Source: Tubulanus polymorphus (taxonomy: Eukaryota > Nemertea > Palaeonemertea > Tubulaniformes > Tubulanidae). Taken from it: a stretch of 64,000 bases of DNA. The notes beneath the pieces are model-generated. The model searched no databases. It was not told where the DNA came from and was given only the letters and a program-made list of their open reading frames with translations. Positions 3,320-30,488 of the stretch are shown here, piece by piece (the stretch's first letter is position 1; each line of letters opens with the position of its first letter). A program made the position numbers and the translations under genes. The stretch lies in the NCBI RefSeq assembly GCF_964204645.1, contig NC_134027.1:8606485-8670484 (forward strand), in the 5' to 3' direction.

Positions 3320-5079
3320 ACATCGAAAGGTTGATATTTATTTTTCATTTAGTTCATATAATATATTCTCTCTATTTCATGAATAACTGCACTGCGGACA
3401 GAACAGACAGAACCCGACAGAAATGTGTAAAAATACAATTCTTTTTTATCCACATACATTGAAAGCCATCAATTTTGCAGGAAGTTCTTGCGCCTCATAG
3501 ACCTGTCTGAGCTAGGATTTGGATTTTCCAGACTGTGAAAATCATTTGCTCTTAATTACATCATCTCATCGAAAATTTATGTGCTGTGTGTTGTGGTTAA
3601 ACGGTCCAGGATTTTATGACCAGCAATCTCAATTGATTCCATCCTAGGTTAGATAAGGCCTGATAAGATTTGTAAATGCATCAAATTAGCTTCCTCCATT
3701 TGAATTGACTTGAACAGGACAGTAACACTTGCAAAGTATACAAATATATAAATTCATCACTTTAACTTTACGAACGCAAACGTACAATGCACATTACATA
3801 GTATAAAATCTATTTGAAAGCATAACTAAATTAAAATTTTTCGTAAGCAGATATTTGAAACTAATAGCCATTTTCATTGTATATCAAATATACCGTAACA
3901 GTACCCTCCGCTCTCAAGTAGGATCTCTCGAATCCTATTCAATTTGGCCAAATTCCTGTTTGAATCTTAAACCAATTTTCAATGAAAATTTTCCTGTAGA
4001 CTTGATAAATATAAAATTATGGTAATAAAATTATTGCCTGGACAATTTGATGCCTTCATCATGCATCCAATTTCGATGATATTGTAGTTTTCATATCGAA
4101 ATTTAAGGAAATACACTTATTCATTCCATGGCATACAGTTTATTTCCTAGTAGGCATTTGCGAATTGTTAGCGTGTCTCAAGCCGGATATTTTGTACGGT
4201 ATGTACAAATGACCATCGAATAAACGCAGTGTGAATCGCTAATTTAATTTCTACTAGGAAATACATGTATATATAAGAAAATTCTTTTAAAGTAGTCCTT
4301 GATATAATTTGGTAAATAATCTGACTAGATCGGGTCTGACTTTTTAGCAGTCTACCGTAATATGCACAGTATGAAAATTTAAGGTTACACCAACTTACAA
4401 GCGATACATTGAATGTATCCGCTTATTGCCCTGATTTCTTTGAGAAAATGAAGAATGCGAAGAATAAAGTAATTTTACTAGAATTACTGATAAAGATTTT
4501 GATAAAATATATACCTGTAGTCTGAAGAAGGGAATTATTTTTAGGAAACTTGTTTAAGGGATACCTACTGTATACATTTGCATATGGTTACATTTCCTCC
4601 TGTCTGGGTTTGAATGGTGTAAAAGGCTTAGAATAATTCCGTTCCTTTCCCTTGAGATTGAGGTTCCTTTTGAGCCTTTACAGATGGTGGAAGGTAGAGG
4701 TTTTCAAAATGTGGTTTACTAATTATTCATAGCAGCAAGCCCGCTTCCCTCAGTATATTTTATTTTATCAGGGGCTGATCTAGGGGGTGGTCCCAGGGTT
4801 GGGACTCCTGTCCTCCAACTGAGGTTGCCCTTATCGTCAAGCTAGAGGTCGTTCTGCAAATTTGACACTAATCTTTTTGGAAATTGCACATTTTCAGATG
4901 TATTTCTTCACGAATATCTAACACCGGGAGAGGGTTCCGGCTAATTAGCCTATGAAAATGCCTCTTCTTATCTGGACCCTGGCCTACCAATTTTTCTAGG
5001 TGCGGCCCTGCTTATGACAAAAGCTGCGTCATATGGAAAGAGTCAGGTCATTTGAAGGAGATCATTGAGTTCCTATATT
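3320..5079. other. Convergent intergenic region and 3' UTRs
   Basis: Lies between the POLR1G stop and the PPHLN1 stop, which converge. Candidate plus-strand AATAAA signals occur near 4024 and 4216; a TTTATT near 4758 could serve the minus-strand gene. A hAT-like MITE (4769-5010) is annotated separately. No other coding signal was seen. Confidence 0.6.
4769..5010. mobile_element. hAT-like MITE, CAGGGGCGGATC family, copy 1
   Basis: Begins CAGGGGCTGATCTAGG and ends TCTAGGTGCGGCCCTG, an imperfect inverted pair. Its interior matches, in inverse orientation, the copy at about 24781-25060: the segments around GGTTGCCCTTATCG, GGTCGTT and GCAAATTTGA line up in the same order. No ORF of note, so it is non-autonomous. 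Confidence 0.8.
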
Positions 5080-14257: not shown

Positions 14258-17241
14258 ATGTTGACGAATATACCTTGGAAGATATGGTTTTCGACCCTCG
14301 GAAAACTAGGGGTCATAGCAACACTTTGGAATGTATGGAGGCTCGTGAAAGGGGTTTACTATCCTAGCGATGATTCGGTTTTGATTGCCGGTAAGAGTCT
14401 AAAATAGTAATCGTATATAGTCTGGGGCGGGTCCAGGAATTTTGAATAAAGGGGCCCAAAAATCCGAGGCCTGTACACATGCAACATTGCACAACATGGC
14501 ATGGACGGAAAGTCCTTAAGAAGGTATTGGGGCCACCAGAAAAGTTTTGAAAAAATGGATCATTTTTTGAGCATCTACATGTAGATCGATTCTAGAACAA
14601 AATAACCAGCATTAATTTTCCACTTTAAGTGTAACTTTCTTAAGCCATAGGTTATGAAAATGATATTTTTGGCAAAAAAAACAGGGGCCCTGGATACGTC
14701 CTGGTAGTGAGCCAACATTTTGGCGATTCCTTTCTTGGATTGTGTCGTTCCGCACTGATCTTAAATAATACGTTGTATATACATGATATTTACAGGAGTG
14801 TTAGTGGTAGGATGTCTTTTGTTTTGCCTTGTGTGTTTTGATATAGCCAGCAGTCGACCAAGTGACTCAGAATCTTTGAAGTTCATCTTCGGTTGCTACC
14901 TCATTGTCAGAGTGTTATTTCGATTCGTAGGTTGGCGGCGTTACAAGTCTTTAGTTCGGATGTCGAAAGACGTCGAAAATACACAAAATCGTCTGCTCAT
15001 GAAACTGATCGCAAATTCGAAAAACACAAAATATGGTTTAGATCACGGGTTTAAACGGATAAATTCAGTTAGCGATTTTTTCAAGACTCAACCATTAACA
15101 AATTATAAAGATTACAAACCTTACATCGACTACACGTTTGAGACCGGGGATCTGAAAGACGTCACGTTCAAAGGAAAGATTGCCTTTTATGGAGCTACAT
15201 CGGGAACCACTGGAAACAATAAGATTTTCCCTTTGTCCGATCAACATATTAGTGAAATGGGCCACTTGTTTTCGGCAACATTCTCGCGTGCATTTCAATG
15301 GATCCCTGCATTATCACATCTCAATCTCCCGTTTTTTATCCGTATCGAACCAGAATTTAAAATGTCGCCACAAGGCATCCGGATAGGACCGCTATCATGC
15401 GCTAGACCATCAAATTTCTTCATCCCGTACAATATCAACAAAGCAGCGTCTGAGGCAGGCGAAGAGACAGTAATGTACGTCCATGCCCTTCTAGCATTAC
15501 GTAAACGCGATGTGGAGTGTTTCTGGTTGGGATTTGTTGGACTTGCGAAACTTTTGATGACAGTCATGGAATCCAAATGGAAACAATTATGTACCGATAT
15601 AGAAAGGGGCGAAGTTTGTCCTGTACTCCCTCTATCGTCAGAGATACAAAGGGAACTGAACGGGCTCCTAAAACCTGATCCAACACGAGCAGATGAACTG
15701 AGAATAGAATTCGAATCTGGCTTTCAGGATATCATCCCTCGTATTTGGCCAAAAGCTAGCTGTATCGGCCTCTTGACATCCGGGTCATTTAAAACCAGTG
15801 CAGAATTATTAAAGAAGAAATATTTCGGCCAAATTCCGGTTTTGTCCAGTGCTTATCTTGGAACAGAATGTAACTATGGATGTCAGACATTTGCTATTGA
15901 TAACAAATTTGAAGATAATTACACTCCGGTTGCTGACGAGGTTTTCTTTGAATTCATTCCCGCTGATGAAATGCATAAAGGCCAACCTCAAACTAAAAGG
16001 ATTCATCAGGTACGGAATTGATAATCTTAAGTAAATCACTTTTAGTTCAAAACAATTCCTATTGATTTCTTTTGTATTCGTAGTTGGAAATGAACGAAGA
16101 ATACGAGATAGTTGTAACTAATAATAGGGGACTTTACCGATATCGCTGCGGTGACGTCATCGCAGTTGTAGGATTTTTCAACGACTTGCCACTTATCAAC
16201 CCATCTTACAGGTTTGTGCCGATACATATTCAACCTTATCATATGAAAATCGTTTAGAAATATCTGTATTCATCTCATTTTTGAAAACAGATCAGGCCAA
16301 ATTTTAAATGTGGCTAACGAAAAATTGACCGAAACCGCCCTGGCAGAAGGATTAAGCATCGCTGCAGATTCTTTGGATATCTCCATCGTAGACTACACAG
16401 CCGTCGAAGGCCCATTGTTTGAAGAGGCTATAAAAAGTAGGTCTATTGAAAAAAAATATTTAGGCTTCACTGACGTCCATAATGATTCCTATTCAACCCG
16501 AAAAGAGCGACTGTAAGACAAAACACTTTTAAAAAAGTCGTCTCTCCATAAGTCAATAACGTTAGGCAGATAATTACGTTATCTCATCAAAAAATCTACA
16601 AATGATTTGATTGATTCTTAATGAGATTCTAAATTTTTTGGGGTATCTTTATTCATTTTTAATTTTCATAGTATGTTCAAAGGCTTTTTAGTTGCCCATC
16701 TCAGTTTAGCATATTTCTGGCGAAGTGCGGAGTTGTTGGCTTGCTCGCTAATATCCAAGTCACAGTTGGCTTGTTTTTGTTAAAATGTAACTGTTAAGAC
16801 ATCATTCAAATTTTCTAGTTGCGCAGACTGGTAGAATGCAAGGCCTTTATGAAGCCATTTTCATCGAAATAACTACAAAATCTGGAAAATCTCGGATGTT
16901 AAAGCCACACGAGAAAGCTAAGGTAACGCCAGGTCAATTACAAAAAGGATATACCTGGTACATTTGATTTATAAGGTTAAGATTAATTCTTTCAGTTTGA
17001 CGGAAGTTTGATGGAAGCTCATGAGTGCTATCGCGCGTGTCGGAATAACGGTATTCTACAGCCGATGTTGGTGTACCAGGTTAAAGATGGAACTTTTCAT
17101 AAATTTCGACAGTTGGTGACCTCATCGAATCCGTTAACGAGCGTGATGCAGTTCAAACAACCTAGATCACTTATAAAGCATGAACATATCAGGTTCTTCA
17201 TAGAAAACGTTTACAATGAAGCTGAAGATTCATCCATATGA
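14258..17241 (+). CDS. GHDC: GH3 domain-containing protein, copy A, intact, 656 aa
   Basis: Exons 14258-14390, 14796-16009, 16084-16211, 16291-16436, 16819-16922 and 16996-17241 (stop TGA), 1,971 nt. All junctions are GT..AG and in phase. GH3 proteins belong to the ANL adenylating superfamily; plant members join amino acids to acyl acids such as jasmonate. The animal substrate is not established. Seen here: a hydrophobic segment (VLVVGCLLFCLVCFDIA, about residues 46-62) and a second one (about 74-91), suggesting a membrane-anchored N-terminus. The adenylate-binding motif GATSGTTGNNK is at about residues 177-187. RYRCGDVIAVVGFF, the GH3 YRxGD motif, is encoded by exon 3, followed by SGQILNVANEKLTETAL. 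Exons 3-6 (208 aa) form the C-terminal acyl-transfer part. AATAAA near 17589 may be the polyadenylation signal. A hAT-like MITE sits in intron 1. Confidence 0.92.
14422..14704. mobile_element. hAT-like MITE, CAGGGGCGGATC family, copy 2 (GH3-A intron 1)
   Basis: Begins CTGGGGCGGGTCCAGGAATT and ends GGGGCCCTGGATACGTCCTG plus G, inverted relatives of each other. Non-coding. Copies B and C have much shorter first introns (18079-18230 and 20957-21089), consistent with insertion in copy A only. Confidence 0.75.
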
Positions 17242-17948
17242 ATCCATAGTTCAACTATATTCGAGACTTTTACTTGGGGAAGTATTTTTAAGATTGCGTT
17301 GGATCTATGACGATAGATTAATTCATTTCTTCTCGTTGCACTATAGAGAACTGTAACGTAATGATTATACATTAATCTGTTTAATGATTATGTAATGTTG
17401 TTCGGATCATTTATACGTTAGTTTGTATTGACCGAGATTTCACAGTAAAGCCTGTTAAATGAAATATATGAATATAATTGATTTTCTAATGGATTTTGCC
17501 AGCTGCTCTCATTCGTACATGCCTGTTTGCAGGGAGCATCTCACTTGTTTTCGAAATTTTCGAAATGTCCAATTTCGTTGCGAAAGTTGAATAAATCGTC
17601 ATATCTTAGAAACTTTGTGAGCAGTAGTTGGTTCTAAAATACCAGGAAGCCTGTAACTGTAGAAGGATTTTGTATAAAAACCAACTGAAATGTAATAATT
17701 TGAGAGAAGGTTCCGAGGAGCACGAATATAAAAACAAAGAAATGAAACTTTTCTTGGTTTAGCTATTTATATCTTTCGCTGAAAAATGTTTTTCCTACCA
17801 GCGCATTGCTTGGTATTGAACAGACTGTGACCCTGTTCAACGCGTCCTAGGACAATGTTATATCTAATTCGTATTTACTGATATCATAGAACTTGTATTG
17901 TCAGCTATATCGATAGGTCTTCCGTCGAAGACGTTTATAAGAACTAAT
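17242..17948 (+). other. Spacer between GH3 copies A and B
   Basis: Holds the 3' UTR of copy A with AATAAA near 17589. From about 17815 it is similar to the DNA upstream of copy C, marking the start of the 2.9-kb duplicated unit. A conserved block CTTCCGTCGAAGACGTTTAT precedes the start codon. Confidence 0.65.
17919..17944 (+). promoter_or_regulatory. Conserved block upstream of GH3 copies B and C
   Basis: CTTCCGTCGAAGACGTTTAT followed by AAGAAC is kept at 17919-17944 and 20797-20822; copy A has the related CTTCAAAGACGTTTGAGTAT at about 14226. It contains a TATA-like TTTATAAG but lies only a few bases before the first ATG. It may be 5' UTR, or mean that the downstream Met (MTWEKW) is the real start. 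Confidence 0.4.
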
Positions 17949-19700
17949 ATGTTGAATATGACTTGGGAGAAGTGGTTTTCGAGGCTAGGAAAATTAGGCG
18001 TGGTAGCAACAATATGGAACGTATGGAATCACATTAAGGCGACGCACTATCCTAGTGATAATTCGGCAACAATCGCAGGTAACTTTCTATCCCGCTATCA
18101 GCCTTGGCTATTGATGATATTCCTTCTTGTATTGATTTCATTACGCCGTACGTAAATATTCTGCGGTACCTTTGCATAGCAAGGTACTAAAATATTTTTT
18201 TTTCAAAATATTTAAAATCTTTATTTACAGTTGTTTCAGTGGTGGTATGTGTGCTGTTCAGTTTTCTATGTTTCGATATAGCTCGCAAACGACCAACCAA
18301 TTCCGAGTCCTTGAAATTCGTCATCATCTACTATTTTATCGTTAGAATATTGATTCCCTTGGGAGGTTGGTGGCGTTATAGGTCCTTAGTTCGAATGTCG
18401 AAGGATGTAAAAAATACGCAAGATCGCCTTTTGATGAAGCTGGTATCAAGCGCGAAAGACACTAAGTACGGTTTAGATCATGGATTTAAGAATATAGATT
18501 CAATTGGTGAATATTTCAAGACGCAGCCGATAACGAATTATAACAATTACAAACCCTACATCGACTACATGTTTGAAACAGGGGATCTAAAAGACGTCAC
18601 TTTCAAAGGGGCAGTTGTGTATTTCGGAGCTACATCGGGGACCACCGGGAACAATAAAATATTCCCCGTGTCCAATAAACATATGATCGAAGTAAGTTAT
18701 GCATATTTGGTAACATTTTGGCGCGCATTCAATCTGATACCAGGGTTTGATAATCTTAATCTTCCATTTTACATCCGCGTTGAACCAGAATTTAAAATGT
18801 CACCACACGGTATCCGAATAGGGCCGATATCATGCTATCATCAGGCAAACATCTGTGTGTCGTACAAAATCAACAGAGCTTTATCTGAGGCAGGCGAGGA
18901 GACTGTGTTTTACGTCCACGCTCTTCTCGCGTTACGTAAACGCGATTTAGCTGTTTTTTGGTTGACTTTCGTTGGACTTACAAAGCTTTGGATAACAACT
19001 ATTGAAACGAAATGGAAACAACTATGTACCGATATAGAAAGGGGTCAGGTCTGGATTGCGCTCCCCCTATCGACGGAAATAAAAGCTGAACTGAACGCCC
19101 TTCTGAAACCTGATCCAAAACGAGCAGATGAGCTGAGAATAAAATTCGAATCCGGCTTTCAGGATATCATCCCACGAATTTGGCCAAACGCTAGCTGTAT
19201 TGGTCTCTTGACATCCGGGTCATTTAAAACCAGTGCAGAATTATTAAAGAAGAAATATTTCGGCCAAATTCCCGTTTTTTCCAGTGGCTATGTTGGAACA
19301 GAATGCAACTATGCATGTCAGACATTTGCTATTGATAACAAATTTGAAGATAATTACACTCCGGTTGCTGACGAGGTTTTCTTTGAATTCATTCCCGCCG
19401 ATGAAATATATTAAGGCCAACCTCAAACTAAAAGGATTCATCAGGTACCTATAGAAATGAAACACCCGCGTTATCTATTTGGCTGAAAACTATAATCATT
19501 ATTTCTTGTAACCGTAGTTGGAAATGAACGAAGAATACGAGATAGTTGTAACCAATAATAGGGGACTTTACCGATATCGTTGCGGTGACGTCATTCAAGT
19601 CGTAGGATTCTTCAATGATTTACCTCTCATCGACCCATCTTACAGGTGTGCCATCGTTTTCTCTTCATTTTCGTCCAAACTATTCAAAGACAATTCATAT

Positions 19701-19787
<87 letters not shown>

Positions 19788-20499
19788 TTTTAATAGATCT
19801 GGCCAAATTCTAAATGTGGCTAATGAAAAATTGACCGAAACCGCCCTGGCAGAAGGTCTGAACATAGCTGCAAATCATTTAGATATATCTGTGATCGATT
19901 ACACAGGCGTTGAAGGTCCCACGTTTGAGGAGGTTATGAAAAGTAAGTTAATTTTCTACGGAAAAGGAAATTGAGGTGTTCCGCAAGAACACGTTATGAC
20001 AAACTCGCTGCTTTGAGAAAAAGACAAATGTGTAGTTTATGATTTTGTGTGACTGTGTGAATATAAGCTTGTTTCTATTTCCATTATAAGTTGCAAGAAA
20101 CGATGAAATGCAAGGCCTTTATGATGTCGTGTTCATCGAAATAACTGCAAAGTCTGGACAACCTCGAATATTGAAGTCGCATGAGAAAGCGAAGGTAAGA
20201 CCAAGGTATGCACCTGAATCATTTTTCAAACATGTAAGACCCATAACCTCATAAACATAATGTTCATTTAGTTTGATGGTGGTTTGATTGAGGCTCACGA
20301 AAACTATCGTGCCAAACGGAATCAAGGCATTCTACATACTATGTTGGTGTATCAGGTCAAAGATGGGACATTCATAAAATTCCGACAGATGGTGCTAGCA
20401 TCGAATCAACTAACTAGTGCGATGCAGTTCAAACAACCTAGATCACTTGCAAAACACGAACACATCAAATTCTTTTTGGACAACGTTTACAAGGATTAA
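17949..20499 (+). pseudogene. GH3 domain-containing gene, copy B, with nonsense codon at end of exon 2
   Basis: Same six-exon layout as copy A: 17949-18078, 18231-19444, 19518-19645, 19797-19942, 20091-20194 and 20272-20499, with exons 2-5 identical in length to A. The reading frame is open except for TAA at 19412-19414, where copy C has AAA (Lys) and copy A also has AAA. It therefore encodes about 438 residues ending after the adenylation half: GATSGTTGNNK is present, but the RYRCGDV motif and the last about 200 residues are cut off. Exons 3-6 remain open with normal splice sites, so decay is recent, or the short protein is used, or the base is an assembly error. Intron 3 carries a long TA microsatellite. 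AATAAA lies at 20633-20638. Confidence 0.75.
19703..19786. repeat. (TA)n microsatellite in intron 3 of GH3 copy B
   Basis: About 80 bp of nearly pure TA between exons 3 and 4, ending shortly before the acceptor. The matching intron of copy C (22504-22586) is short and lacks it, so the expansion arose after the duplication. Confidence 0.95.
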
Positions 20500-20835
20500 A
20501 TTACAACGACATCTTGTATCATAAAATGCAAATATACTATGTAGCTTAAGAGTTAGCTATGTCACGTAAGATTATGCATGTATATGGGTATAATTGGGAC
20601 ATTGTATTCATGTAAAAAACCCTGTTGTCACCAATAAAGATAAAGTTTTTTTTATATCTTACGTTGGAATATGTTTTGTCTTAATAGTGCGTTGTTTAGT
20701 ATTCAATAAATTGCGTCTCATCAAACAAAAACATATATAGGACAATTTTATATCTAGTTCGTACTGGTTACTATCTCAGAATTTGTACTGTCAAGTCTTC
20801 CGTCGAAGACGTTTATAAGAACAAATACGTTGAAT
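20500..20835 (+). other. Spacer between GH3 copies B and C
   Basis: 3' UTR of copy B (AATAAA at 20633-20638), then sequence similar to the region upstream of copy B including the CGTCGAAGACGTTTATAAG block. No gene. Confidence 0.7.
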
Positions 20836-23290
20836 ATGACTTGGGAGAAATGGTTTTCGATGCTAGGAAAATTAGGCGTGGTAGCAACGATATGGAACTT
20901 ATGGAAGCTCATTAAGACGACGTACTATCCTAGTGATGATTCGGCAATAATCGCAGGTAACATCCTGCTATCTTTCTTGGCTATTGATGTTTTCCCTTTC
21001 TTATTGATTTCATTGCTCCGCACGAAAACTTTCTGCGGTACCTTTGTTTCAAGGTACACGTACATTCATTCAGTAATCGTTATTTACAGGTGTTGTAGTG
21101 GTGGGATGTGTGCTGTTTAGTTTTCTATGTTTCGATATAGCTCGCAAACGACCAAGCAATTACGAGTCTTTGAAATTCACCATCATCTGCTATTTTATCG
21201 TTAGAATATTGATTCCATTCGGAGGTTGGTGGCGTTATAGGTCCTTAGTTCGAATGTCGAAGGATGTAAAAAATACGCAAGATCGCCTTTTGATGAAGCT
21301 GGTATCAAGCGCGAAAAACACGAAGTACGGTTTAGATCATGGGTTTAAGAATATAAATACAATCGGTGAATATTTCAGGACGCAGCCGATAACAAAATAT
21401 AACAATTACAAACCCTACATCGACTACATGTTTGAGACCGGGGAACTGAAAGACATCACTTTTAAAGGGGAAGTTGTGTTTTTCGGAGCAACATCGGGAA
21501 CAACTGGAAACAATAAAATGTTCCCCTTGGCCAATAAACATGTGTACGAAGTAAATAACGCATTTTCCGCAACATTTTTTCTTGCATTCAAACTGATACC
21601 AGGGTTTGATAATCTTAATCTTCCGTTTTACATCCGCGTTGAACCGGAATTTAAAATGTCACCACAAGGCATCCGAATAAGACCGATATCATGCTATCAA
21701 CAGGCACATATCATCATTTCATACGAAATCAACAAAGCTTTGTCTGCAGCAGGTGAAGAGACTGTGTTTTACGTCTACGCTCTTCTCGCGTTGCGTAAAC
21801 GCGATTTGGCGGTTTTTTGGTTGACTTTCGTTGGACTTACAAAACTTTGGATTACAACTATTGAAACGAAATGGAAACAACTATGTACCGATATAGAAAG
21901 GGGCCAGGTCTGGATTGCGCTCCCCCTATCGACGGAGATAAAAGCTGAACTGAACGCCCTTCTGAAACCTGATCCAAAACGAGCAGATGAGCTGAGAATA
22001 GAATTCGAATCCGGCTTTCAGGATATCATCCCACGAATTTGGCCAAACGCTAGCTGTATTGGCCTCTTGACATCCGGGTCATTTAAAACCAGTGCAGAAT
22101 TATTAAAGAAGAAATATTTCGGCCAAATTCCGGTTTTGTCCAGTGGCTATGTTGGAACAGAATGCCACTATGGATGTCAGACATTTGCTATTGATAACAC
22201 ATTTGAAGATAATTACACTCCGGTTGCTGACGAAGTTTCTTTGAATTCATTACCGCCGATGAAATATATAAAGACCAACCTCAAACTAAAAGGATTCATC
22301 AGGTACCTATTGAAATGAAAAGCCCTTGGTATCTATTTGCCTGAAAACGATAATCATTATTTCTTGTATCCGTAGTTGGAAATGAACGAAGAATACGAGA
22401 TAGTTGTAACCAATAATAGGGGACTTTACCGATATCGCTGCGGTGACGTCATTCAAGTCGTAGGATTCTTCAACGATTTACCTCTAATTCACCCGTCTTA
22501 CAGGTGTGCCATAGCTTTTTCTCCATTTTGTCCGAACTGTTTAGAGAAAATTTCTATCCATATTATTGGCTTTTTTTGTTAAAAAGATCTGGCCAAATAC
22601 TAAATGTGGCTAGTGAAAAACTGACCGAAACCGCGCTCACAGAAGGTCTGAACATAGCTGCAGATTATTTAGATATATCTTTGATCGATTACACAGCCGT
22701 TGAAGGTCCCTTGTTTGAGGAGGTTATAAAAAGTAAGTTAACTTTCTACAGAAAAGGAAATTGTGGTGTTCCCCAAGAACACGTTATGACAAACACGCTG
22801 TTATGAGAAAAAGATAAATGTGTAGTTTATGATTTTGTGTGACTATGTGAATATAATCTTGTTTCTATTTCCATTATAAGTTGCAAGAAACGATGAAATC
22901 CAAGGCCTTTATGAAGTCGTGTTCATCGAAATTACTGCAAAGTCTGGACAACCTCGAATATTGAAGTCGCATGAGAAAGCGAAGGTAAGACCAAGGTATG
23001 CACCTGAATCATTTTTCAAACATGTAAGACCCATAACCTCATAAACATAATATTCATTTAGTTTGATGGCGGTTTGATTGAGGCTCACGAAAAAATATCG
23101 TGCCAAACGGAACCAAGGTATTCTGCATACTATGTTGGTGTATCAGGTAAAAGACGGGACATTCATAAAATTCCGACAGATGGTGCTAGCATCGAATCAA
23201 CTAACGAGTGCGATGCAGTTCAAACAACCTAGATCACTTACAAAACACGATCACATCAAATTCTTTTTGGAAAACGTGTACAAGGATTAA
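20836..23290 (+). pseudogene. GH3 domain-containing gene, copy C, with two frameshifts
   Basis: Exons 20836-20956, 21090-22302, 22376-22503, 22587-22732, 22881-22984 and 23062-23290. Exon 2 is 1,213 nt rather than 1,214: one T is missing where copies A and B read GTTTTCTTTGAATTC (about 22232). This shifts the frame and gives a stop just after the exon 2/3 junction. Exon 6 is 229 nt against 228 in copy B, with an extra base in CACGAAAAAATATCG (about 23090), so two indels break it. The first Met codon used by copies A and B is ACG here; the next ATG (MTWEKW) could serve. The AATAAA of copy B is AATGAA here (about 23423). The adenylation half with GATSGTTGNNK is intact and very close to copy B. 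Best read as a decaying duplicate; homopolymer assembly errors are the alternative. Confidence 0.8.
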
Positions 23291-23733: not shown

Positions 23734-26700
23734 CTATTGGAGTTTGTCCGGTTCCTCTTGTGTACAATAAAGTAATTTCTGCGATCGAACTGTGGCCTTC
23801 TCTGAAATATACGTAAGACTTAGATCATTATCTTCTAAAATACTTAAATCTGACAAATTTGCTTATATTTGAATTTACAAATTCTCTTTAGATTGAGTGG
23901 GATCACATTATGTATGGTTATTTATACTATTGATAATAATAAATTGTCATTTATATAGCGCAAGGTTTCTTTACAAAAGTTCAAATGCGAGAAACATTGT
24001 AGAATCTAGATACGCACTTACTTATAATTTTTTGGAGACCAGACGGTTTGTTTTTCCAACGTACACCGATCAGAAAAACGGGTACCCCCGATGCGACAAT
24101 CGACGCTCCAATAAGGCATTCCAATGGCGTATCGAACAGCGGAAACATTACCAGGAACACGCAAATACACAGGAAAAGAATCGGAAAGAACAGATTTATC
24201 TGCAACAAAACAACAAAGCGAAACTCTCATATGAATCATGAGAAAGTCTGGTTTATAGGGATTCTCAGTTCCTATTATTTTCTGTAATTTCGGATACCGT
24301 TTAGAAAATAGCTTATCCGTTATACCAAAAGTACATAACTTCATGAATTTTCGGTTATACCTTTATTGGACGATGAAGGTCTGGCCTCTTCCATCTCAAG
24401 TAAAGAAGTCCCATGATTGACAAGCCAATAAAGGACGACTCGACAAATGTTGTATAGTTTATTAGCTTATACACGTCATTGGTGCACAGGTATACCATTG
24501 AAATAACACACTGAAACCAGGAACACAGTTGTTTTGATTAATCAAATAGCTGTTCATGAGCTTGTAAACATCAACTTTCATATCAGTTAAGATAAACTGC
24601 GAACGTAAGATTCCAGGCATGATGATTTGAAAACTCCTAATCATATAGGTGCGCTTGGAAGATTACCACCCGAAAACTTTTGTTATTTTATATAAACTAA
24701 CTTGAACTTGAACTGCATGCTCAATCGAAGAATGAATATTTTCACATGCATCAGTAACGTTGTCTCTTTAGACTTTTGGTCTATTTGCACGCGACTGCCG
24801 GGGAAATTTAAAAGGCAGGGGTCCAGAGGAAAAGAAAATACATTTTTCGAGGTCCCTCCTCGGTATTAGATATGTTTGAAGAAAAATATCAGAAAGTATG
24901 CAATTTCCGAAAGGACTAGTTTTCAAATTTGCAGGGTTTAACGACCTTTCTTTTAACGATAAGGGCAGCCTCAATGGAAAGGCAGGAATCCAGATCCCCG
25001 AGAGCACCCCAAATTAGCTTCTATGGGCTGAGCTGCAGATCCAGATTTCCCTAGCTGGTACTTCAGTCAGGAAATACACATAATCATCACTTAAGTATGC
25101 GTAGCAATACTAACATTTATACTAATGTACACAAAAATAAATTTTAGCTTACCCCGAATAATAATGATGGTATGGGCGTATAGTACTTGATATTGATTAA
25201 AGCCAAAGCATCTGGTAAATGACCAGAACGCGCACCAACGAAGAATAACCTGCAAATGAAAATATGTGTATTGTAGTAATGACCTGACGAAGTCGAGCAT
25301 TGAGATTTTCTAATTCAAGCATATATGGTATATATATACTGCATGGAACAAAATTGTTTTGAGATGGGTCTTGAAGCTAGTGAATCTTTCGGCAATCTTA
25401 AATACAAATACGTTTGAGGAAAATAATTTCTTAACGTTGATAGTCAGGAAAATTCAGCCAATGACTCAATCAGTCACTTGGATGACGTCACTGCAGTCCA
25501 CTCAAGTCAAATTTCGATTGAATCTGTATTCTCAAAAGGTATATTCTGAATCTAGGATCTACAAAACTAAAGAGCTACTCGCAGTTGATATATTTACCTA
25601 GCCGATGCAAATATTCCTCCGTTCAGACCACCAAAAGTGGAGCAAGCAACAAATATCGGCATGACCCATGACATAACCCCGAGAGTTTTATCTGCGAATG
25701 TCTGCAAAATATCCAGAAATTGTTATTTATCGTCGAGAAAGAAGATGCTTTGACTTCCGAAAATGGATTTCTCGGAAGAAGATGCTTACTTACAACTGCT
25801 ACTGCATTCGATTCTAATAATTCCTGGGGAGTGAGGACCGTAAAATACGCTACATTTGCCAGCACATAAACTGTCGTAACTAACGGCATTGATATCCATA
25901 TAGCCCGGGGTAAATTTCTAAAATACAGGAGAATAACTACGTGAAATGTCGTTAAGTGGAAGAAGTCAGGAAAATCTTAAACACTTTATTCATCGGCTCG
26001 ACAATGATCCGTAATTTCGTTTCTAATTTTGCTAACTTACTTATACGGTTCAACTAGTTCCTCTGTTACAAAATTTAGATAATTCCTGAAAAATCAATTC
26101 ATACCTCACATTTTTAATGACGCGGGGTTTGCGGCTACATTGGCCTGTCATCGAGCAGGGTTCGAACCCGTTTAAAGCAATCGTTTAACAGAATTTTTAA
26201 GATTGATTCAAACCACTCAGGCAATTATCATCAAATTGATTGGAATTCAAAGACCTGACCACTGGATAAGCCATGAGAACTATCTAAGATCAGAGAAAAC
26301 ACCCGAATCACACAGGCCATCCACAGATTTACTTAAATATGGAATTGTAGATCGGCGAAATATTTCAAACTTACCATCCAGCATAAGAAAATAAACCGGA
26401 ATAAAATGCTACTGCGTACGAGCCCGGAGAACTGGCAGCACCTTCGAATGGACTTTTGAAATTTTGTACATGACCTGAAAACAATCCGTATGTCTAAATA
26501 TTCAATTCGTATCATGTCTAAAAGTTGCCAAGGAGAATGGCGATAGGTATCTCGAAGATTTTGCATCATTTTAAGTGAGAGAATCTTTCGTTTACGATAT
26601 CTATCAATTGCATCCATAACGAGTAATTTACCTTGGCCCATCATCACGAATCCAGTAATGATAATGACCAGAAGAGCGAAAACTTTTGTTACGGTAAAGA

Positions 26701-28967
26701 CATCGGTTACTCTCGCCGCCAGTTTGACATTGTAACAATTTATGAAAGTTAAAAGAGCTAAAACAAAAATCAAAAAGAAAACATTGATTGGATTGATTGA
26801 AAACGAAGAGAAATGTAGGCGGTATGTAATAAAGCCAACCTTTCTACTTTCTATAATATGTATATATTAAACAGACCTCAATTTCAAAATCGATTCATCT
26901 ATATAGTAGAATATGCGTGCCTAATTGGCCGTATAGGTTAATTTTTTCCTGAATAATAGGGGTCAGAAATGCAAAGCTCGTGATTATCGACAGCAATTAT
27001 CGTATGTATTTTCATCTGTAATAATCGTCCACGATCGAATGAGAAATATCCCGAGTATTACGCCGTTAGATGATCAGTATAGTTCCCTTCTTTTCCACTC
27101 TTTCCACTTCCACTTCCACACTATGTTTTCGGAAACAACCTAAGCTATTTTGTGTTTGCACCTCTCACATAAAAGAAATTAACTATTCTTTTGTATTAAG
27201 TGTGTGATTTTGACACTGCAGAACTGGATTAGATTTTGACATTATCTATGCGATTTAATTCTTTAAACTGAAAATTTGTTAGGTTGATAAGCGCTAATTT
27301 CATCTGAAGAAATCTATACTTAATCAATGCAGGGCCGTTGCGATAGATTTTTTATCAGTCCCTATATCTCATGAAACAAATAAGTAAACACGTATGGGCC
27401 GCATCAACTTGTTATGTTCCCAAGTAATAACGGATAATTTACCGTGATCCAGAAAACAGACAAAAATTGAAAATTACTACAATTAGCCACACGGATGATA
27501 GCTCTTTTAGCATTCCCAGTGGAATGATGTATCGGTGAGGTATTTTTTTGTCAAGCAACAAATCAGGTCAAATTCTGCTTAATACTATGAAAAACATTTA
27601 TCATTACTGAGGCTGGTAGCGTATACTTCATTATCGAAAATAATAATGTGTATCTTAATTCATTATACGTTATCGATAACATAAAATGATTAAATGTGAT
27701 AAAAAGGGTGAGCACTTTTTTCACGGGTTCCAATTCGCCGCAAGGATGGATTTAAGTTTTAAGGGGACGGGCCTTGTGGACTGGTCCAATCCCCTTCAAA
27801 ATTCGAATGTGCCCTCAGGAAAGTCGGAAAAAGATTCTGCTGCAAAGAAAATCTTAAAAAGAATGGAAATAAATACAAATAGACCCCTTTTTATCCCAAC
27901 ATTTTGTGACAGGACCACCAGACCCCCGCATTGCCAAATCTGCCTTTTTCATATCAAGTGCCCATTCCAATACCCCCTTCAGTCGAAGAATCTTAGATCA
28001 GCCCTGGATATGGACAGGACCAGCACAAATTCTATAGAAATTTTCATTACCTCCAAAAATCGTCCGGATCATTGCCTTACCTATACACGACGCAGCTATC
28101 AATCGAACCGCCTCGTCGGGGATTTCGCATGACGGAAAAAACGGCTGTAGTATGTAATTGGCGAAGGTCAACGCCGTGATTGCATTACCGACGGGTACAA
28201 TAATCAATACGGCCACCCACAGATACAAAAAGGCTGGCAACGCCCCGAAAGCCTCGTTGATGTAAGCGTAGTCAGCTCCTGACTTCAGAATACACGTTCC
28301 CAGTTCTGCATAGCATAGCGAACCAATTAATGAAATGACGCCGCACGCCGCCCAAATGACCAGTGATCCGAAAACGCTGCCCGACTTCTGAAGAACTCCT
28401 TTCGGTGAAACAAATATCCCGCTTCCGACTATTACACCGACAATAATACCAACTCCGCTTCCTAGACTGATATTTTTCTTTAGCTTTACCTAAAACGATT
28501 CACCACGCAAACAATACAAAACAAAATTCCGATTTGTTTCGATTTAAAAGTAGACTGAAAAAATTCTCAAAGCGTTTTTCAATGTTTACGTGATTATTTT
28601 TTTCAGTTATAAGTTGGTTAGATACATTCCCTGATCTGTAAAATGATGAACGTGATCAAGAAAATGAAAAATTCGAAATGATATTATCATCCTTGAACAC
28701 TAACTTTTGGCTTTTGATAAAACAGTCATAGTTAGAACTGTATATATAGCTCATACAACAGTAGCATTTGCTTTTAATTAAACCTAAAATATATCCCTAA
28801 TACACTAGCGTTGAATTAGTTGATGAATTATTCATCATTCTCAGTATAGTGTCGAAAATATGAAATAGCTATGCTAGCCTATGACAGTGACGATATCATA
28901 AATATACCTGAGTGTCATCCGATTCGGCACTTTCGCCATTTTCTCGGCTGCGAACGTTTTCCGCCAT
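23734..28967 (-). CDS. SLC7 heteromeric amino-acid transporter light chain, complete, 486 aa
   Basis: Minus-strand exons 28967-28908, 28489-28081, 26757-26632, 26474-26375, 26085-26041, 25917-25794, 25701-25598, 25249-25153, 24510-24361, 24199-24022 and 23801-23734: 1,461 nt, every junction in phase. Twelve-helix APC-superfamily exchanger of the LAT/b0,+AT/xCT group. Seen: [10 protein letters not shown] in helix 1 (residues 42-51), [17 protein letters not shown] in helix 3, and [14 protein letters not shown], whose Cys141 sits where light chains make a disulfide with the SLC3 heavy chain. Also [59 protein letters not shown], and [13 protein letters not shown] before the last helices. Length is normal for light chains. 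Which amino acids it carries cannot be read from sequence. It needs an SLC3 partner for surface delivery, by family knowledge. The last exon ([15 protein letters not shown]) resembles light-chain C-termini. Reading on without the last splice would add about 13 residues to a TGA at 23981. Confidence 0.93.
24781..25060. mobile_element. hAT-like MITE, CAGGGGCGGATC family, copy 3 (SLC7 intron)
   Basis: Contains AACGATAAGGGCAGCCTCAA, GGCAGGAATCCAGATCC and GATATGTTTGAAGAAAAATA, the inverse of the interior of the copy at 4769-5010. The right end GCAGATCCAGATTTCCCTAG is a worn terminal repeat. The left end is unclear. Confidence 0.7.
26758..28080 (-). other. SLC7 intron 2, holding a MITE
   Basis: Intron of 1.3 kb between the helix 1-3 exon and the [11 protein letters not shown] exon. 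About 270 bp at 27741-28016 is a hAT-like MITE. I saw nothing else of note. Confidence 0.6.
27741..28016. mobile_element. hAT-like MITE, CAGGGGCGGATC family, copy 4
   Basis: Left end CAAGGATGGATTTAAGTTTT, followed by AAGGGGACGGG; right end TCTTAGATCAGCCCTGG, the complement of the CAGGGGCTGATCTAGG start of copy 1. The open frame across it is not protein-like. Confidence 0.7.

Positions 28968-30367: not shown

Positions 30368-30488
<121 letters not shown>

Follow-up and report, generated by a model that had tools for sequence, protein, structure and literature searches.

The 64,000-nucleotide stretch analysed here (the window; Tubulanus polymorphus, contig NC_134027.1, positions 8,606,485 to 8,670,484 of the forward strand) carries a tandem array of three genes of the GH3 family of acyl-amido synthetases. 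As read from the DNA, this array is a recent and mostly decaying duplication, in which one GH3 gene is intact and two have recently become pseudogenes. It is more ordinary than had been claimed, and its value is that it led to a second locus, on contig C10 of the same assembly, which is probably one gene with ten alternative acyl- and adenosine triphosphate (ATP)-binding units on a common C-terminal part, i.e., an independently evolved, UGT1-like generator of diversity for acyl–amine conjugation, perhaps serving detoxification or making conjugates for signalling or defence. The explanation as a whole, a decaying array in the window together with C10 units that are alternatively spliced to one tail, is considered quite probable, with the activity, substrates, promoters and splicing inferred.

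The three copies in the window are direct repeats of one GH3 gene, arranged head to tail. Tandem copies with an identical exon structure had been described in an earlier note on this DNA, and this description was borne out by a direct repeat search, by the DNA itself and by gene models, which also match the array coordinates given there. The models were built by hand with GT-AG introns and have six exons each with matching phases. Copy 1 (14258-17241, + strand; exons 14258-14390, 14796-16009, 16084-16211, 16291-16436, 16819-16922 and 16996-17241) is intact and forms one open frame of 656 amino acids. Copy 2 (17949-20499, + strand; exons 17949-18078, 18231-19444, 19518-19645, 19797-19942, 20091-20194 and 20272-20499) is interrupted by an in-frame stop, and copy 3 (20836-23290, + strand; exons 20836-20956, 21090-22302, 22376-22503, 22587-22732, 22881-22984 and 23062-23290) changes frame twice. 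The gaps between the genes are short, with 707 bases between copies 1 and 2 and 336 bases between copies 2 and 3. All three match the GH3 N-domain profile PF03321 in the genome search (1.6e-55, 1.1e-52 and 2.7e-51 for copies 1, 2 and 3, respectively), and the adenylation motif GATSGTTGNNK, which had been noticed before, was found in each of the three translations. The possibility that the array itself is a shared-exon cluster was rejected, since every copy has its own 3′ exons. An (AT)n run of 41 units lies in an intron of copy 2 (19703-19783), and another of 58 units is found at 30371-30486.

The lesions in copies 2 and 3 were overlooked by the earlier note. In copy 2, an in-frame TAA (19412-19414, + strand) stands near the end of exon 2 and is a substitution to stop in the model; in copy 3, there is a one-base frameshift near 22236, in exon 2, and another frameshift near 23090, in exon 6. 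Two of the three copies are therefore disabled as assembled, and the proposal that local expansion hints at a lineage-specific role is weakened for this array because of it, whereas the expansion as such became clearer at the scale of the genome (19 matches, ten of them on C10; see below). Copies 2 and 3 differ by a nonsynonymous divergence (dN) of 0.053 and a synonymous divergence (dS) of 0.160 (dN/dS 0.33), and copy 1 stands at a dS of 0.78 and 0.74 from copies 2 and 3, respectively. The low divergence between copies 2 and 3 implies that the last duplication was recent and that both copies have been constrained over much of the period since then. Superimposed on this is a candidate gene-conversion tract (15692-16211, + strand), recognized by identity and dS, in which copy 1 reaches 91-96% identity with copies 2 and 3 over the stretch of exon 2 from 15692 onwards and over exon 3, compared with 69-81% in the remainder of exon 2, and in which dS of copy 1 to either of the other copies is down to 0.08-0.25 at codons 351-450. 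Since the silent sites in the tract are also alike, gene conversion is likelier than constraint alone, and this near-identical tract common to copies 1, 2 and 3 suggests that such conversion took place.

The assignment of the array to the GH3 family, also made in the earlier note, held up in the profile check, with PF03321 found in the three copies and the GH3 (N), GH3_M and GH3_C domains of copy 1 all above the curated Pfam cut-offs (1.4e-56, 7.2e-22 and 9.4e-09). The solved structures closest to copy 1 are those of ten distinct plant GH3 sequences, from 3.7e-41. A structure prediction of exon 2 of copy 1, built on 16 sequences from the same genome, reached moderate confidence (predicted local distance difference test, pLDDT, 69.6; predicted template modelling score, pTM, 0.61), and all 30 of its PDB matches with E <= 0.001 were GH3 chains, with query-normalized template modelling (TM) scores of 0.43-0.66 at an identity of ~20%. 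The motifs of the ATP and magnesium (Mg) site (TSGTTG, TE and YRYRxGD) are all present in copy 1, with TSGTTG at residue 179, YLGTE at 398 and YRYRCGD at 467. Glu342 of OsGH3.8, the Mg-binding residue according to the available part of PMC10747189, is kept in copy 1 as well as in each of the ten C10 units; in place of Ser341, all of them have Thr. The N-terminal hydrophobic segments that had been pointed out were recovered in copy 1 with 19-residue Kyte–Doolittle windows, which score 3.08 at residue 41 and 1.67 at residue 72 and would be consistent with anchoring of the N-terminus in a membrane. Inside the enzyme domain, at residue 284, another window also reaches 1.67. Judged by its family, copy 1 most likely still encodes a working ATP-dependent ligase.

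In a profile search of the whole 267.8 Mb assembly, there were at least 19 matches to the GH3 N-domain, each of them above the cut-off: ten on contig C10, four on C3 (the window copies and one at 9.18 Mb), two on C5, two on C1 and one on C4. In-frame stops are present in the match on C4 and in one of those on C1. In a tree with 18 rows from this genome and two from plants (20 in total), the window copies grouped with the gene at C3:9.18 Mb, and the ten C10 units with that at C5:24.3 Mb, both groups at 100/100 but on branches that were flagged as long. The tree has no bacterial or other animal rows because the contig scan for relatives, run with the exon at C5:1.86 Mb, returned 13 pattern matches, none of which was confirmed. 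A GH3 relative at C1:8161000-8170500 (minus strand) has an open large exon in which the ATP motif reads VAGNKSSK instead of TSGTTG, and it is possibly a pseudo-enzyme. About 14 kb from it, at C1:8150000-8159500, there is a GH3 fragment that covers only profile positions 232-304 and contains a stop, and a diverged GH3 gene at C4:24935500-24943500 has one in-frame TAG in its large exon.

The cluster on C10 (C10:12213733-12239346) was examined in 37 kb of contiguous sequence. It contains ten tandem large exons (exon 2) of 1205 or 1208 bases, all of them open, which encode the acyl- and ATP-binding domain. Each is preceded by an exon 1 of ~42 codons with its own ATG and a strong donor (CAGGTAAGA or CAGGTAAGG, 10/10). 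Behind the last unit lies one set of four 3′ exons, and a search with the 3′ protein as the query revealed no second copy within the 37 kb (next best E 0.59). When each unit is joined to this single set, one open frame of 642-644 amino acids results in all ten cases. Isoform 1 matches the Pfam GH3 N, M and C domains at 2.6e-50, 2e-15 and 6.5e-13, the common 3′ part carrying the end of GH3_M and the entire GH3_C. The length of exon 2 is 3n+2 in each of the ten units, so that a message with two exon 2s would be shifted out of frame; in the single pair that was computed, units 1 and 2, the first stop is reached at codon 452 if both are included. The donors of exon 2 read CAG|GTT in 10/10 units, whereas GTA or GTG was found in all seven other exon-2 donors examined in the same genome. 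From the phases, the donors and the lack of another 3′ set in the neighborhood, it is inferred that the C10 units share the single set of 3′ exons. A tandem repeat array (local piece L012, ~3353-4606) that can be read through in several frames follows immediately behind these exons.

That the ten units are under constraint was concluded from two lines of evidence. Pairwise dN/dS of exon 2 is 0.17-0.36 over 45 pairs, as expected for purifying selection. In a simple simulation of neutral decay, by which each exon would gain ~4 stops over 0.10 substitutions per site, only 5 of 500 exons were left stop-free at this distance, and none of 500 at 0.135. The ten real units, none of which has a stop, lie 0.073-0.160 from their own consensus when four-fold sites are compared. 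Taken together, the conclusion that constraint acts on all ten units is well supported by these sequence comparisons.

The variation among the units was then compared with the acyl pocket of the plant enzyme OsGH3.8, whose specificity residues are given in the available part of PMC10747189 as R130, L137, V174, L175, M337, A339 and Y344. The positions had to be transferred by sequence alignment, since no usable structure model was obtained for the C10 exon, and from plant residue 118 to 190 the alignment is uncertain. The C10 residues aligned to M337 are M, G, L, E or V, those at A339 are G or W, and those at Y344 are L, V or K. Units 1, 4 and 5, for instance, are unlike one another at sites aligned to the pocket. 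Six of the eight C10 positions with at least four residue types fall within four residues of five pocket positions (hypergeometric 4e-6, leaving out V174 and L175). Near the aligned pocket, there are 44 extra amino-acid types versus 16 extra synonymous codon types, and away from it 135 versus 153, which corresponds to a 3.1-fold odds ratio for enrichment at the pocket (p = 2e-4).

Several observations weigh against a cluster of swappable pockets on one tail. The unusable exon model had a pLDDT of 35.3, and the exon-2 donors are weak, with 5-6 of 9 consensus matches, although the difference from the 6-8 of 9 found elsewhere is small. The C10 residues at R130 (L/I) and L137 (L/F) vary only conservatively, and V174 and L175 align to invariant residues in a region where the alignment is poor. 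Under circular shifts, the clustering of the 36 positions with at least three residue types was matched or beaten in 18 of 402 cases. Silent divergence is likewise raised at C10 codons 141-200, and no full 20-codon window has a ratio of nonsynonymous to synonymous variation (pN/pS) above 1, the highest being 0.55 (a two-codon end was excluded). Positive selection on the C10 pocket was rejected on this last ground. What is claimed is that change close to part of the pocket has been relaxed or diversifying, with positive selection not proven.

Other explanations were weighed for both loci. If the lesions in the window were assembly or sequencing errors, all three copies would work, and it speaks for this that both lesions of copy 3 are single-base length differences beside runs of bases and that the dN/dS of 0.33 between copies 2 and 3 indicates constraint until recently. 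The lesion of copy 2 is, however, a substitution to stop, and three lesions fall in two genes of ~1.9 kb, compared with none in copy 1 and none in ten C10 exons of ~1.2 kb, so that this explanation is quite unlikely. An origin of the GH3 genes by contamination or by recent transfer from a plant or microbe would agree with the fact that these enzymes are best known in plants (as stated in the available part of PMC11253546). Against it stand the location of the array in a contig of 27.8 Mb, its spliceosomal introns and the adjoining animal-type SLC7 gene, as well as the separation of the 18 rows of this genome from the two plant rows at 100/100 (with long branches, and in a tree without bacterial or other animal rows); such an origin is very improbable.

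For C10, the alternative is that the last unit is the sole complete gene and that the nine others are partial duplicates, either dead or encoding short proteins that consist of the N-domain only. Truncated copies can indeed result from tandem duplication, and the weak exon-2 donors would be compatible with it. This is nevertheless unlikely, given that exon 1 and exon 2 are open with in-phase splice signals in 10/10 units, that dN/dS is held at 0.17-0.36 where neutral decay at 0.10 substitutions per site should have brought ~4 stops into each exon, and that an N-domain alone would lack the M/C part that pivots in the plant enzymes, as far as these are covered by the available text of PMC11253546. 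Alternative splicing of ten constrained units to one tail is the reading that is followed here.

Next to the array, on the minus strand of the window, are the exons of an SLC7-type amino acid transporter light chain (25626-28489, AA_permease_2), of which that at 28001-28489 matches LAT1 at 7e-48. Elsewhere in the assembly, the smallest contig (C77, 15646 bases) was considered as the mitochondrial genome and rejected on reading its sequence; it carries an open reading frame that looks integrase-like by eye. None of the listed COX motifs and no telomere array was seen in the loci examined.

In the proposed explanation, a gene with six exons, encoding a GH3 ligase anchored in the membrane, would have been duplicated twice in tandem in the window. 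The product of copy 1 would adenylate a small or fatty carboxylic acid and hand the acyl group to an amine (for example, that of an amino acid), a chemistry deduced from that of the GH3 family. Copies 2 and 3 would have split recently from one another, stayed under constraint until recently and then become pseudogenes, and gene conversion would have connected the three copies. The family would also have expanded elsewhere, and on C10 the repeated duplication of exons 1 and 2 would have led to ten variable units that are spliced singly to one set of 3′ exons, yielding ten ligases from one gene that may differ in their acyl pockets and have the C-terminal part in common, as UGT1 does for glucuronidation. 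With two exons per unit, and exon 2 having its own acceptor, the exon-2 acceptors of the downstream units must be skipped. In the GH3 reaction, as described in the available part of PMC11253546, the acid is adenylated in the pocket of the N-domain, the C-domain pivots and the amine takes the acyl group. The same source reports that a chimera of the N and C parts of two Arabidopsis GH3 enzymes adenylates and that the reverse chimera does not; the activity of the former makes a swap of pocket domains on a constant C-terminal part chemically plausible.

GH3 chemistry has been well studied in plants, and the role of these enzymes in animals is poorly known; a search of the literature (Creative Commons-licensed papers) gave nothing on invertebrate GH3 function or on GH3 variable-exon clusters. 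The set found in this genome, with its 19 N-domain matches, an intact gene beside two pseudogenes and the C10 cluster, is offered as a tractable system for GH3 conjugation in animals. Should C10 splice as its anatomy suggests, two unrelated conjugating families would have arrived at one and the same arrangement, in which the substrate domain is swapped and the rest kept, and its ten natural pockets would be a ready series for mapping acyl specificity.

Among known systems, the plant GH3 enzymes (OsGH3.8, VvGH3-1, AtGH3.12 and JAR1) agree with the proteins described here in their N, M and C domains, in the adenylation motif, in the Glu that binds Mg and in their N-terminal fold, but the latter differ from them in the N-terminal hydrophobic segments and in the aligned residues of the acyl pocket. 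Vertebrates have a GH3 domain-containing protein, GHDC, which is usually described as a single gene, and the products of the window genes resemble it in being animal proteins with a GH3 domain. The closest parallel to C10 is the vertebrate UGT1 locus, where, according to the available part of PMC3325998, each variable first exon has a promoter of its own and carries the acceptor pocket, and common exons follow. As far as that account goes, both have tandem variable 5′ units for substrate binding ahead of one constant 3′ set, and C10 may also share the variation near the acceptor pocket; on C10, the reading frame is kept across the junction with the constant exons in all variable units (10/10). 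C10 is unlike UGT1 in that it belongs to an unrelated enzyme family and has two exons per unit, and its separate promoters and alternative splicing are presumed. The clustered protocadherins (named in the available part of PMC3325998) and Dscam likewise use one of many similar exons per transcript, as C10 presumably does; these, however, are adhesion or recognition proteins, whereas C10 encodes enzymes.

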